64,000 nucleotides of DNA, taken from positions 186,001 through 250,000 of the forward strand of contig JAJCZA010000002.1 of NCBI GenBank assembly GCA_029262635.1, in the 5' to 3' direction. The number at the start of each line of letters is the position of its first letter. The first letter of the stretch is position 1. This DNA comes from Vampirovibrionales bacterium (GTDB taxonomy: Bacteria; Cyanobacteriota; Vampirovibrionia; Vampirovibrionales; Vampirovibrionaceae). The notes under the pieces are model-generated. The model was not told the DNA's origin. It was given only the letters and a program-made list of their open reading frames with translations, and ran no database searches. This document shows positions 25,571 through 44,308 of the stretch, piece after piece. A program made the translations under genes and the position numbers.

Positions 25571-26401
25571 TTGGGTAGAGTAGGGGCTCAGAAAACCATT
25601 TCAAAACAGACGGACAACCTAAAAAGTACGAAAAAGATTCTGGATACCAAAGGCGAAGAGATTAAAAAGCTTTGGTTTGCTTACCAGGAACAGCCTAATA
25701 ATGCTCAAATACGAGAGCGACTTATTATAAGCTATCTTCATCTGGTCCGTTATGTTGTTAGCCGTCTTCCCATTACCCTTCCCGTCAGTATTGCCCACGA
25801 AGATTTAATCAGTTATGGCACGATGGGGCTTATGGAGGCCGTCGAGCGCTTTGATCCGAGCCGGGGACTAAAATTTGAAACCTATGCTGTTACCCGGATT
25901 CGAGGCTCTATTATTGATCAGCTTCGGTTTCAGGATTGGATTCCAAGAGGCGTTCGAAAGCGAAGCAAGGAACTGGGTGAAGCCATGCAAGCTCTTGAAG
26001 AAAGGCTTGGACGAACCCCTACAAATGATGAACTGGCTGAAGAGCTAGGTGTTGAGAAGACAAAACTCAAGACCATGTTAGCTGAAAGTAATAATCTGGT
26101 CCTTTCTCTTGATGAAAAATGGGGAAATGATTCTGAAGGCAGTAAAGGTTCGCTTATTGATACGGTTGAAGATAAGAGTAGCCCGGATCCTGAAGGAGAA
26201 TTAGAAGTAATTGAGCTTAGAGCCCGGCTTGCCGAGTCTATTTCTTCTCTTCCAGAGCGAGAAAAACTGTTGATTGCCCTTTATTATCACGAAAATATGA
26301 CTTTGAAAGAGATTGGCGAGGTGATCTGTGTTTCTGAATCCAGAGTATGTCAGCTTCATGCCCAAGCGATTCTTCGGTTGAAAGGGAAATTAAGTCAATG
26401 A
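25571..26401 (+). CDS. sigma-28 (FliA/WhiG) family RNA polymerase sigma factor
   Basis: A group 3 sigma factor of 276 aa. Region 2 includes YVVSRLPITLPVSIAHEDLISYGTMGLMEA-type sequence (about 58-90) and FETYAVTRIRGSIIDQLR. Region 3 begins SKELGEAMQALEERLGRTP. Region 4 includes SLPEREKLLIALYYHENM and SESRVCQLHAQAILRLK, the helix-turn-helix for -35 recognition. This order and wording match FliA/WhiG, which in other bacteria controls flagellar or developmental genes. No flagellar genes are in this window. The only canonical start available is TTG at 25571, without a clear ribosome site. AGGGG at about 25584 is followed eleven bases later by an in-frame ATT, so a near-cognate start is possible. 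The next gene overlaps by four bases (ATGA). Confidence 0.9.
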   Translation: MGRVGAQKTISKQTDNLKSTKKILDTKGEEIKKLWFAYQEQPNNAQIRERLIISYLHLVRYVVSRLPITLPVSIAHEDLISYGTMGLMEAVERFDPSRGLKFETYAVTRIRGSIIDQLRFQDWIPRGVRKRSKELGEAMQALEERLGRTPTNDELAEELGVEKTKLKTMLAESNNLVLSLDEKWGNDSEGSKGSLIDTVEDKSSPDPEGELEVIELRARLAESISSLPEREKLLIALYYHENMTLKEIGEVICVSESRVCQLHAQAILRLKGKLSQ

Positions 26402-26997
26402 AGCCTGAAGATATGCGTATTGGCTACTTGCTAATTAGTACGCCCATTCCCAATGTTTATATTGGAGGCGGGATGGTGACAGACGGCCATGGTCTGCCCA
26501 TTGAGTTTCGATACACCGAGCCGATTCAGCCCACAAAAATTCAGCAAATTCTCTACGGTCAGGTTCTCAGTAGCTATATTAAAAAAGAAGTCATACTGGA
26601 AACACTGATTAAAAGTTTAAGCAGTAAGTTTAGCTATCTTTTGGTTGAAGATGAACAGCTACTGACTTATCAAAATTCGAAATTTCTGGTGATTCGTGTC
26701 AGTTCGACCCAATCGGCAAAAATCGGTGAGATTGGAAAGGTTCAAGAACTTTCACCCTCTGAGGTTCTTTTGCAGGTTACCCGGGAGGGAAGCCCCTTGC
26801 GGCTTCAGTTGCCAGAAGAAGGTCAGCACGCTTCGGGGGGTAGCGCGAGTGGGGGAACTGCTGTCCAATCTCCGCCCATCTCTTTGGATGCGTTGGTCGC
26901 GGCTGGGCAAACCATGGATATTTACGAACCTATTAAACGTATTGAAAAGGCACTGGAAACCATATGTCAGGAAGCAGGAATCAAGGGAGAACAATAA
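26398..26997 (+). CDS. unknown protein in sigma-factor operon (first)
   Basis: Not recognised. 199 aa from the ATG at 26398, which overlaps the sigma-factor stop codon. The N-terminal half (RIGYLLISTPIPNVYIGGGM, then EFRYTEPIQPTKIQQILYG) looks like a compact globular domain, followed by an alpha-beta region to about 125. A Gly/Ser-rich linker (SGGSASGG) near 145-155 precedes a helical C-terminal tail. No signal peptide or membrane helix is visible. Its place directly after a sigma factor and before a kinase/anti-sigma-like pair makes a regulatory role plausible, but this is inferred from neighbourhood only. Confidence 0.7.
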   Translation: MKPEDMRIGYLLISTPIPNVYIGGGMVTDGHGLPIEFRYTEPIQPTKIQQILYGQVLSSYIKKEVILETLIKSLSSKFSYLLVEDEQLLTYQNSKFLVIRVSSTQSAKIGEIGKVQELSPSEVLLQVTREGSPLRLQLPEEGQHASGGSASGGTAVQSPPISLDALVAAGQTMDIYEPIKRIEKALETICQEAGIKGEQ

Positions 26998-27899
26998 CCG
27001 AAAAACTGCTGGATGAGATCCGTTCGACTTTCGCACTGGTTAAAAAGGATTTCAGGCAGTTTCCGGTCGATTTTGTCATTGACTCTGAATTGACTATCTT
27101 CTCAGCCGATTTCTATTGTGATACCCACACGATGGACTATCGCCTCTCTCCATTCGGAATCGGTCAAAATTTTGAACCCGTTGAAGGCATCGAAGTATCG
27201 GTTGCCTCTTGCGCCCTTTTGGAAAAAGCCTCGGTTGCCGATAACGAGCAAGTCGCTCTTGATTGGCAACCGCCTGTTTTTCAGGTTCCGGTTTTTGATC
27301 AACCTGACCTTTTTCTTCATGGGGTGTCATTTAATAATATAGAAGCTGTTGAAGGAAGCGGTGTTCGACTGGAGTCGTTTGAAACGAACCCCCGAGCCCT
27401 TCCGGTGCCAAAGCATCCTGAAACCCAAGCGAGAGAAATAGAGTTGTCCCAATTAAAAACCTCACAGAAAACGCGTCATTTTGATGCGCTGAAAGGCAGG
27501 GCACAGCCTTTTTCTAAGGCGATGTACGGGCTTCCCTTTATCCGAAAAGCGCTTCCTTCTCACCGGTTTTCCGCAGAGAGCCGGCAGGTTTTTCGCCAAG
27601 CACTTGCCGAAAAAGTAAAAACCACGCCGAGCAATGTATTGATTAACCGCATTTACGACCGGGTGAACCGTTCTCAGTTTCAGTCGATATCCCAAGACGA
27701 ACGCGGCCAACTGGTTTGTGTTCCAAAATTAAACTATGTGGGCCAAAAACGGAAAACAGAGTTTTCCCAAACGACAGCGTTTCTCATTATGGGACAAAAA
27801 CTGGATACAAAAGAAAACATTAGTGTTCTGGTACCGGTTGCCGATTTATCTGCGGATAGCTCTGACGTACCTTCTTCCCGGAGGCCCGAAGACGAATGA
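26964..27899 (+). CDS. unknown protein in sigma-factor operon (second)
   Basis: Not recognised. 311 aa, starting at an ATG inside the end of the previous gene (34-base overlap) and ending with an ATGA overlap with the downstream kinase gene, so it is translated from the same message. No membrane helix or signal peptide is visible. The N-terminal 45 residues are charged. A central stretch is proline- and acid-rich (QPPVFQVPVFDQPDLFLHG), and the C-terminal third has ordered beta-like strands (TAFLIMGQKL, NISVLVPVADL). No known motif is visible. Both operon neighbours with recognisable domains are signalling proteins. Confidence 0.65.
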   Translation: MSGSRNQGRTITEKLLDEIRSTFALVKKDFRQFPVDFVIDSELTIFSADFYCDTHTMDYRLSPFGIGQNFEPVEGIEVSVASCALLEKASVADNEQVALDWQPPVFQVPVFDQPDLFLHGVSFNNIEAVEGSGVRLESFETNPRALPVPKHPETQAREIELSQLKTSQKTRHFDALKGRAQPFSKAMYGLPFIRKALPSHRFSAESRQVFRQALAEKVKTTPSNVLINRIYDRVNRSQFQSISQDERGQLVCVPKLNYVGQKRKTEFSQTTAFLIMGQKLDTKENISVLVPVADLSADSSDVPSSRRPEDE

Positions 27900-29071
27900 T
27901 ACAGGATATGAAAATACTGAGTAATATCTTTGAAGTTCTGCCCTCCGGGGTGCTGATCTATAATAATCAGGGGGCGATTAGTCAAATTAATAGTCGAGCT
28001 AAGGAGTTACTTCGACTTCCTGCTTCGGGTGATTACGCTCATCTGGAATCGTTTCCAGGCTATTTAAGCGAACTTGTTCAGCGATTAGACGTGGCGGGAG
28101 GAGATATTTCCCGCTCTGAAATAAAAATCCAGTTCCCAGAGCAGGAAACCCCTTCGGTCATTGGATTTACACTAAAGTATGTTCGGCTTGAAACGGGTGA
28201 ACCTTCCGAAGGCGAAGAAAATTCGGCCGACTCCCGTATTTTTATTTTTAATGAGATTACCCACATTGTTCAGGAACGTCTGGCCATGGATAAAATCAAG
28301 GACGAGTTATTTCAGTCTAAAAAACTGGCTTCGATTGGTACCATGATTTCCGGGGTTGCCCATGAGCTTAATAACCCATTGACCGGTATTTCCATGAGTA
28401 CTCAACTCAGTGAAATGACTTTACGTTCTCTGATCAAAACGCTGGATCCCAAAACAGATGCTGACACCATCCGTTCGTTAGAAAGCGCGCTACAAGAACT
28501 AAGGAAATCAGGTGAAGAGGCCAGAAAAGCGGCCGTTCTGGTTAGCGATTTATTAAACTACTCTAAACCCTCTCAGCTTAATTTATCTTTGGAAAACCCG
28601 GTTAAGCTAACCGGGGAAATGGTTCAAACCATCCAATCTCATCCAGAATTTTCTCAGATCCGCTTTCACATTGAACCCTACGAAACCCAAACCGATATTC
28701 TCTGCGATCGGGTTAAAGTTGAACAGGTTTTTTATAATCTTTTTAAAAATGCCAGCGATGCGATGGAGAATGAAGGTGATATTCATATCCGGTTTTCAGA
28801 TACCCGTAACCTTTCTGATAATACGCCCATGATTCAGATTAGCGTTAGTGACGCAGGCCCTGGCATGGATAAAACGTTGTTGAGTCGAATCTTTGACCCC
28901 TTCTTTACGACAAAAGGAGCCAAGGGTGTTGGATTGGGATTGAGCATTAGTTTTAGAACCATTGAACAGCATGGCGGAACCCTTACGGTGGAAAGCCCGA
29001 AAGAGCAAGGAGCCTGCTTCCATATTTCGCTCCCTCTGTTTGTCGAAGAGGAGGAAGCGATTATTTTTTAG
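27896..29071 (+). CDS. PAS-domain sensor histidine kinase
   Basis: A soluble kinase of 391 aa. A PAS domain covers about residues 8-125 (FEVLPSGVLIYNNQGAISQI). The HisKA domain has H156 in SGVAHELNNPLTG, the NtrB/AtoS-like H-box type. The HATPase domain has N box NLFKNASDAM, G1 DAGPGMDKTLLSRIFDPFF and G2 KGVGLGLSIS. No transmembrane helix is present, so it senses an intracellular cue. The start overlaps the upstream stop (ATGA); an ATG at 27908 is the alternative. It sits 26 bases before the receiver-ATPase gene, its probable phosphotransfer partner. Confidence 0.93.
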   Translation: MIQDMKILSNIFEVLPSGVLIYNNQGAISQINSRAKELLRLPASGDYAHLESFPGYLSELVQRLDVAGGDISRSEIKIQFPEQETPSVIGFTLKYVRLETGEPSEGEENSADSRIFIFNEITHIVQERLAMDKIKDELFQSKKLASIGTMISGVAHELNNPLTGISMSTQLSEMTLRSLIKTLDPKTDADTIRSLESALQELRKSGEEARKAAVLVSDLLNYSKPSQLNLSLENPVKLTGEMVQTIQSHPEFSQIRFHIEPYETQTDILCDRVKVEQVFYNLFKNASDAMENEGDIHIRFSDTRNLSDNTPMIQISVSDAGPGMDKTLLSRIFDPFFTTKGAKGVGLGLSISFRTIEQHGGTLTVESPKEQGACFHISLPLFVEEEEAIIF

Positions 29072-29097
29072 TCCAAAATAACCGCCAGAATAATTGT

Positions 29098-30063
29098 ATG
29101 TTTATGAGCTTAGAGCAGACCAATACCTCTCCATCTTCCAAACCTCATCACATCCTTATTGTTGATGATGATAACACCATTCGCGAAAGCATGGTGCGTT
29201 ATCTGGAGAACTTCCACAAAACAACAGTCCCCATCAGTATTCACTCGGTTTCTGATGCGCCAGAGGCTTATGAGTTGATTCAAAAAAACACCTACGATCT
29301 GGTCATCTCTGATATTAATCTTCCTCACGAGGATGGCTTTAAAGTACTTCAGGCGGTTCGCCGAGCCAGTGAAAACACACGAATCGCTTTAATTACCGCT
29401 TATCGGGTTGAAGACTATATTCGCTTGGCGAAAGAGACCGGTATCTATAATATTATTGCCAAAACCGCGCCGTTTAATTTTGACGAGCTTTCTAACGTCG
29501 TCAATAACTTGCTTCACCCCGAAACCGCTTTTGGATTGGCGCCCTATTTTTCGGAGTCCGAGTCTTTTCAGGAATTTACGATTGAAAACAGTCAGCAGAT
29601 CATGGAGGTTTTTAATACGTTGCGTGCGTTCTTCGAGGCGTCGAAGGTAAAAAGTCTGGACACCCTGTCCACCGCCCTAATTGAAGCGTTGACCAACGCC
29701 GTTTACCACGCCGCTAAAAATCCGGACGGGACGCTGAAATATCGAAAGGGTCAGGAAATTAAATCGCTTGAGCCCCATGAGAAGGTCTCTGTCTACTATG
29801 GAAAAGATACTGAACGGGTTGGCGTGTGTATTGTGGATCAAGGTGGACGCATTACCGCTGAGGAGATTCTATTCTGGCTGGATCGCAACATCAGTGGGGC
29901 GGGTCTGCTTGATAGCCATGGCCGGGGAGTTTACCTTATGCATACGTTGGTGGATCGCCTGATTATTAATATTAATCCTCAAAAACGAACCGAAATTATT
30001 GTTTTGGATTACTTTAGCCCTGAATACAGCTCTAACAAGCCTCTCTATATCAATCAGCTTTAA
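29098..30063 (+). CDS. response regulator with RsbW-like (HATPase_c_2) output domain
   Basis: A receiver domain (about residues 18-140, acidic DDD at 23-25, phospho-acceptor D72 in LVISDINLPHEDG) is fused to a GHKL ATPase domain of the anti-sigma/serine-kinase type (about 165-305). The second domain has an N box EALTNAVYHA (E196, N200), a G1-like VDQGG (246-250) and a G2-like HGRGVYLMHTLVDRL (274-288). Such domains in RsbW and SpoIIAB bind sigma factors or phosphorylate antagonists. As the last gene of the sigma-factor operon, it is a good candidate for a phosphorylation-controlled anti-sigma factor or antagonist kinase; that partner assignment is inference. An ATG at 29104 is an alternative start. 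Confidence 0.9.
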   Translation: MFMSLEQTNTSPSSKPHHILIVDDDNTIRESMVRYLENFHKTTVPISIHSVSDAPEAYELIQKNTYDLVISDINLPHEDGFKVLQAVRRASENTRIALITAYRVEDYIRLAKETGIYNIIAKTAPFNFDELSNVVNNLLHPETAFGLAPYFSESESFQEFTIENSQQIMEVFNTLRAFFEASKVKSLDTLSTALIEALTNAVYHAAKNPDGTLKYRKGQEIKSLEPHEKVSVYYGKDTERVGVCIVDQGGRITAEEILFWLDRNISGAGLLDSHGRGVYLMHTLVDRLIININPQKRTEIIVLDYFSPEYSSNKPLYINQL

Positions 30064-40862: not shown

Positions 40863-41408
40863 TTAGCTTTTCTCATTCTTCTTTTTGGGTTTCTTAGCTT
40901 TCGGTTCCTTGGCCTCATAAATGGGATCAGGAAAATAGTTGTCGCCGAGCAGACGCTTCATACTGCGAATTTCGCTATTGGCTCTCAACCCATAGGGGTT
41001 ATCGGGAAAACTGCTGGAAAGAAACGTATAGAGTTCATAGGCCTCATCATAGAGTTCACGCTTTTGGTAAAGCACCGCCGCCTGATACACAGGCTGAACC
41101 ATCTGCTTGTTTTTGGGGTGTTTTTTCATGAGTTCCATGAGCTTGTACCGAATGTCAGCCAACTCACCAGAATCCTCTGGAGAAAATAGGTAACGAGACT
41201 GGATTTTAATGAGGAGCTTGTTCAGGGATTCAGAAAGGGGCTCTAAGCCTTCTTTTAGTTTGGCCTCGGCCTGTGGGTCCACTTCTTTTTTCTTTTTCTT
41301 GGCATTCGCGGATAAATTACCGACACCCATACTGAGAAAGACACTGCCGATTAGAATTAGGCTGGTGCCTTGTCGTAAACGTCTGAGTAAAAGTGAGAAA
41401 AAAGACAT
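40863..41408 (-). CDS. exported TPR-like protein
   Basis: 181 aa from an ATG with GAGG six bases upstream (a TTG four codons earlier is also open). A basic N terminus and hydrophobic stretch (TSLILIGSVFLSMGVGNLSANA) form a signal peptide. The mature part starts with a poly-lysine run. A helical repeat resembling tetratricopeptide pairs is visible (PVYQAAVLYQKRELYDEAYE, then LYTFLSSSFPDNPYGLRA). The C terminus is again lysine-rich. Related small periplasmic TPR proteins act in envelope assembly, but no specific partner is indicated. It ends 34 bases from the convergent MucR-like ORF. Confidence 0.6.
   Translation of the reverse strand: MSFFSLLLRRLRQGTSLILIGSVFLSMGVGNLSANAKKKKKEVDPQAEAKLKEGLEPLSESLNKLLIKIQSRYLFSPEDSGELADIRYKLMELMKKHPKNKQMVQPVYQAAVLYQKRELYDEAYELYTFLSSSFPDNPYGLRANSEIRSMKRLLGDNYFPDPIYEAKEPKAKKPKKKNEKS

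Positions 41409-44308
<2,900 letters not shown>

Follow-up and report, generated by a model that had tools for sequence, protein, structure and literature searches.

The operon at positions 25571-30063 of the window (the whole stretch of 64,000 nucleotides that was analysed; the host genome measures 2.99 Mb, and all coordinates of the operon are on the + strand) ends with the gene of a response regulator in which a receiver domain is fused to an RsbW-type ATPase. This fusion protein may be a two-component-controlled anti-sigma factor or kinase acting directly on the sigma-28-type factor encoded at the head of the same operon, a reading to which we assign a probability of roughly one half (about 0.48), the binding of the sigma factor being proposed from sequence comparisons. 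In favor of direct action are the five-gene order, a minimal unit of sigma and ATPase genes, the invariant ATPase residues, the joint degeneration of kinase and receiver, the genome inventory, and the presence of flagellins together with sigma-28-type sites.

Proteins with the REC-RsbW architecture are widespread, occurring in Proteobacteria, Planctomycetes and Spirochaetes (PMC12826045), and their target or sigma factor has been stated to be unknown (PMC12826045, PMC13269768). The architecture itself is already known from LvrC and TciR, and our comparisons suggest that what is new is a named candidate sigma target. As the gene order conserved across families links one REC-RsbW protein with a named sigma factor, the question is reduced to a simple test of binding. 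If the reading is true, response regulators of this widespread class would gain a first candidate target. The locus also suggests that, in a non-photosynthetic, predatory lineage of Cyanobacteriota, FliA is under a layer of control additional to FlgM, and it draws attention to two conserved but uncharacterised sigma-28 partners, named here u1 and u2.

Organization of the operon and its products

The first gene (25571..26401, 276 aa from a TTG codon) encodes a FliA/WhiG-type (sigma-28) factor, which scored 265 bits against the NCBIfam profile FliA_WhiG (TIGR02479; cut-off 190) and 242 against FliA (cut-off 201). The TTG at 25571 stands directly after a stop codon, most relatives begin with ATG, and no ATG or GTG was found 5' of the conserved sigma core, so that either the start is uncertain or the upstream sequence contains an error. 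After the sigma gene come u1 (26398..26997, 199 aa, with an ATG start at 26398), u2 (26964..27899, 311 aa), a soluble PAS histidine kinase (27896..29071; Pfam PAS_8, HisKA and HATPase_c) whose phospho-acceptor was placed by alignment at H156 (codon 28361-28363), and the response regulator (29098..30063). Adjacent genes overlap by 4 bp at sigma/u1 (ATGA), 34 bp at u1/u2 and 4 bp at u2/kinase, and a 26 bp gap separates the kinase and fusion genes. The kinase matched no transmembrane family, u1 and u2 matched no Pfam or NCBIfam family, and none of the five proteins gave a FlgM family match in either collection.

Within the fusion protein, the receiver domain (residues 19-135, positions 29152..29502; Response_reg E 4e-22) carries D23, D24, D72, T100 and K122, with the phospho-acceptor D72 at 29311-29313, and is followed by a HATPase_c_2 domain of the RsbW/SpoIIAB type (29599..29985; E 6e-11). 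In an alignment of 15 proteins, residues E196, N200, H204, D247, G250, R276 and G277 were invariant in all; the N box (E196/N200/H204) reads ExxxNxxxH and is accompanied by a G2 motif (G275-R276-G277), as in RsbW and SpoIIAB. The profile of the fusion matched structure 9QIH, that of LvrC, across both domains; the PDB chain label of this entry, SenB, hinted at other systems, a lead abandoned because the entry corresponds to LvrC.

These data bear out much of the sequence-only reading of this DNA. The ORF coordinates agree with its description of five same-strand genes with three overlaps and a 26-base gap, and the Pfam and NCBIfam profiles agree with its gene identities (FliA/WhiG sigma factor, two unfamiliar proteins, soluble PAS kinase and receiver-RsbW fusion); the residues it had highlighted in the fusion (N box E196/N200, G2 box and D72) are present in the alignment.

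Conservation and decay of the gene set in relatives

The host genome falls within the order Vampirovibrionales (Cyanobacteriota), Vampirovibrio and other members of that order being its nearest named relatives. The five operon proteins were compared by tblastn with loci from relatives, a search for conserved gene order that the sequence-only reading had proposed. Order and strand of the five genes were the same in nine other genomes from families f1 and f2 (L031-L034 and L036-L040, the fusion of L034 being cut by a contig end), a recurrence that argues against chance, and the sigma-ATPase core was also found in family f3. Genus g11 of f3 (L072, L073) presents sigma, kinase and fusion genes, without u1 and u2, and genus g8 (L070, L071) retains sigma and fusion genes, without kinase, u1 and u2. 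In two f1 genomes, G001 and G003, u1 and u2 still accompany the sigma gene, no kinase gene comes next, and the ATPase gene is located elsewhere. Directly 5' of this relocated ATPase gene in G001 there is a gene for a LuxR-type (GerE) regulator (L074:7148-7858), and a similar gene was seen in G003 (L075:8739-9572).

Loci of Gastranaerophilales carry u1 next after the sigma gene and have no ATPase gene; a u2-like gene comes after these two in L046, L050 and L053, recognized by clear tblastn matches in L046 and L053 and only by similarity to the eye in L050. Three further loci (L048, L051 and L052) hold Gastranaerophilales-type sigma relatives for which no adjoining u1 gene was found. Outside Vampirovibrionales, no best match among 58 genomes covered the ATPase part, all of them being of the receiver type. 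From these distributions, the sigma and ATPase genes appear to form a minimal unit kept in three families, with the exception of G001 and G003. Furthermore, the differing gene sets of f1/f2, f3 and Gastranaerophilales indicate that u1-u2 and kinase-ATPase joined the sigma gene separately.

It had been suggested from the operon alone that u1 and u2 serve as antagonists or inputs of the ATPase, an idea not supported, given their presence in Gastranaerophilales, which lack the ATPase, and their absence from f3, which has it; both proteins would rather be older companions of the sigma factor than of the ATPase. The AF2 model of u1 (pLDDT 87) had its best solved Foldseek matches among RNase H-like folds (EndoV and Piwi; E 4e-6, TM 0.39-0.49), a lead on the predicted fold only: an active RNase H-like nuclease was discarded, with a TM of just 0.4-0.5 and a first strand devoid of a conserved acidic residue. 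For u2, alignment and the AF2 model indicated an N-terminal helix (11-26), a low-confidence region (27-190) and a folded C-terminal domain (about 190-300), with no solved structural match. Two other candidate roles were rejected, namely kinship with FlgM or STAS proteins, given the lack of a family match and of a solved relative, and an obligate flagellar function, given that the flagellated family f5 is devoid of u1.

Regarding the kinase and the receiver, D23, D24, D72, T100 and K122 were all kept in the nine proteins (9/9) encoded beside a kinase with an intact H box, and the receiver was degenerate in the four (4/4) without an adjoining kinase and in both (2/2) whose kinase has lost HisKA. 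In the two g8 proteins, which have no kinase, D23, D24 and D72 are replaced by E, P and E; the ATPase proteins of G001 and G003, also without an adjoining kinase, show no recognisable receiver motif; and the two g11 proteins keep D72 and have lost the acidic pair, beside a kinase that retains PAS and HATPase_c with no HisKA match. Since f3 and G001/G003 fall in separate clades of the sigma tree, this decay probably happened at least twice, although the events are few. Joint degradation is as expected if the kinase (H156) serves the receiver (D72), and the ATPase domain would seem to have a job that outlives phosphorylation control.

Partner-switch components and flagellar sites in the genome

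The fusion was the one HATPase_c_2 protein above the cut-off in its own genome, as judged with profile PF13581, which might overlook a second, divergent ATPase of the anti-sigma type. The same genome encodes a single SpoIIE-type (PP2C) phosphatase with a receiver-like N-terminus (L167, G000:C23:55652-56227; L168:398-2079), and exactly one such phosphatase was found per genome in 18 Vampirovibrionales; in an alignment of 17 of these proteins, the catalytic motifs were kept, and most N-terminal domains were without the usual receiver residues. Four stand-alone STAS proteins were identified, all matching the anti-anti-sigma model and none encoded in the operon. One STAS gene has CheY-like and CheX-like neighbours, and a CheR-like gene lies close by (L163:1489-2720). 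In G005, a STAS gene lies directly 5' of the phosphatase gene, and its product has 46% identity to one of the four STAS proteins.

A FlgM-like protein of 119 aa is encoded on a different contig (L076:1360-1719; G000:C23:176405-176761), unlinked to the sigma gene. Its matches to FlgM models were weak and below cut-off for both (Pfam E 0.011; TIGR03824 5e-4), and it is conserved across f1 and in three of the four f2 genomes searched; no homologue was found in f3 with a single-sequence query, which could miss one. The earlier statement that no FlgM or STAS antagonist gene is present thus holds for the locus and fails for the genome, where antagonist, phosphatase and FlgM parts exist outside the operon. 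As judged from gene content, the unlinked STAS proteins with the SpoIIE-type phosphatase are more likely antagonists than u1 and u2.

Flagellins were found in 18/18 Vampirovibrionales and, elsewhere in the class as sampled, in family f5 only. A relaxed scan of longer upstream regions revealed sites of the type TMAAGT-N14/15-CCGATA, a pattern that fits the known sigma-28 consensus, 5' of flagellin genes in several genomes; a search for the E. coli sigma-28 consensus within 300 bp 5' of flagellins had given nothing clear. In the genome under study, a genome-wide pattern count yielded 19 occurrences versus 20 in a reversed control, so that no regulon is claimed and individual sites there prove nothing. 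A sigma-28-like site, TAAAGT-N14-CCGATA on the - strand of the window (41497-41466), lies 5' of a 185-aa ORF (40863-41420) and may be at chance level. A sigma-28-like site was also seen between the sigma and ATPase genes of G011, from family f3 (L071:5008-5040), a possible feedback promoter that is not clearly kept in G013.

Proposed mechanism, alternatives and known systems

In the mechanism that we propose, the PAS kinase would autophosphorylate on H156 and transfer its phosphate to the receiver at D72, and the receiver would in turn control the fused RsbW-type domain. In one of its states, this domain would bind and sequester the co-encoded FliA-type factor; SpoIIAB and RsbW sequester their own sigma factors. 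Gene content suggests that the unlinked STAS antagonists would help the release, that the RsbW domain would phosphorylate and so inactivate them, and that the single PP2C (SpoIIE-type) phosphatase would reactivate them. The separate FlgM-like protein would constitute the usual flagellar check, and u1 and u2 would be older accessory partners of the sigma factor that the ATPase does not need. The fuller proposal, in which a REC-RsbW protein under kinase control acts as a direct anti-sigma-28 factor and integrates, with PP2C, STAS and FlgM, a split partner switch timing the flagellum of a predator, u1 and u2 representing a novel kind of accessory protein for sigma-28, is more tentative, and we hold it to be somewhat doubtful as a whole.

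Several observations count against direct action, namely the ATPase gene of G001 and G003 that does not adjoin the sigma gene, the location of the STAS proteins outside the operon, and the fact that the homologous domain of HsbR reaches FliA indirectly, through STAS and FlgM, in combination with the presence of a FlgM-like protein here. The last of these leads to the main rival, in which the RsbW-type domain would serve solely as a STAS kinase and the fusion would never touch FliA: unphosphorylated STAS would bind the FlgM-like protein, thereby freeing FliA. In Pseudomonas, it is unphosphorylated HsbA that binds FlgM, and the phosphorylation of HsbA is set by HsbR, a REC-PP2C-kinase protein (PMC6482189); the required FlgM-like protein (in all f1 and three of four f2 genomes searched), STAS proteins and PP2C phosphatase are all present. 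However, the ATPase gene stays beside the sigma gene rather than beside STAS or FlgM genes, and the sigma-ATPase pair persists in f3, where the single-sequence query found no FlgM homologue. We regard an indirect switch as rather unlikely.

That the fusion controls a different sigma factor, its adjacency to fliA reflecting co-expression or cross-talk, is improbable. The second-closest sigma factor of the genome is indeed SigF/SigB-like (G000:C5:180962), the type targeted by the known RsbW and SpoIIAB proteins; yet its gene is unlinked to the operon, in contrast to the adjacency of fliA and the ATPase gene across three families. Even less probable is an action on no sigma factor at all, with u1, u2 or an unrelated protein as the target. 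SypE-type RsbW domains do act on STAS proteins without a sigma target, and the target of TciR is open (PMC12826045), but u1 and u2 are absent from f3, where the ATPase is present, and present in Gastranaerophilales, where it is not.

LvrC of Leptospira (PDB 9QIH) likewise has an RsbW-like Bergerat domain after its REC domain, and a histidine kinase serves it; its sigma target is described as unknown, whereas here the operon begins with a FliA-type gene. TciK/TciR of Vogesella indigofera also combine a kinase with a REC-RsbW regulator that keeps the ATPase residues, but they comprise two genes only, no sigma gene being reported in their operon, and Vogesella is without RsbV, whereas STAS proteins exist here; according to the same report, no protein of REC-RsbW architecture had been functionally characterised before (PMC12826045). 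HsbR/HsbA/FlgM/FliA of Pseudomonas aeruginosa, CrsR and SypE share a receiver-controlled RsbW-type kinase, tied in those systems to FliA or RpoS via STAS partner switching; in HsbR, CrsR and SypE a single chain carries receiver, PP2C and kinase, in contrast to the two proteins found here, an intact REC-RsbW and a PP2C whose receiver-like N-terminus is degenerate.

With SpoIIAB and RsbW the fusion has the N, G1 and G2 motifs in common (the nearest RsbW chain, 6m36, being a weak match); unlike them, it carries a receiver, and its proposed target is FliA-type rather than SigF/SigB. A direct RsbW-sigma-28 precedent in Chlamydia was considered and rejected, as the paper gives sigma-66, not sigma-28, as the RsbW partner. 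In the three papers joining FliA, RsbW, partner-switching and motility within the open-licence literature searched, titles and abstract openings announce no direct RsbW-type control of FliA. Finally, as in the FliA-FlgM checkpoint, this genome encodes a sigma factor of the FliA type together with a FlgM-like protein; to that checkpoint the operon would add a second, phosphorelay-controlled layer beside fliA.
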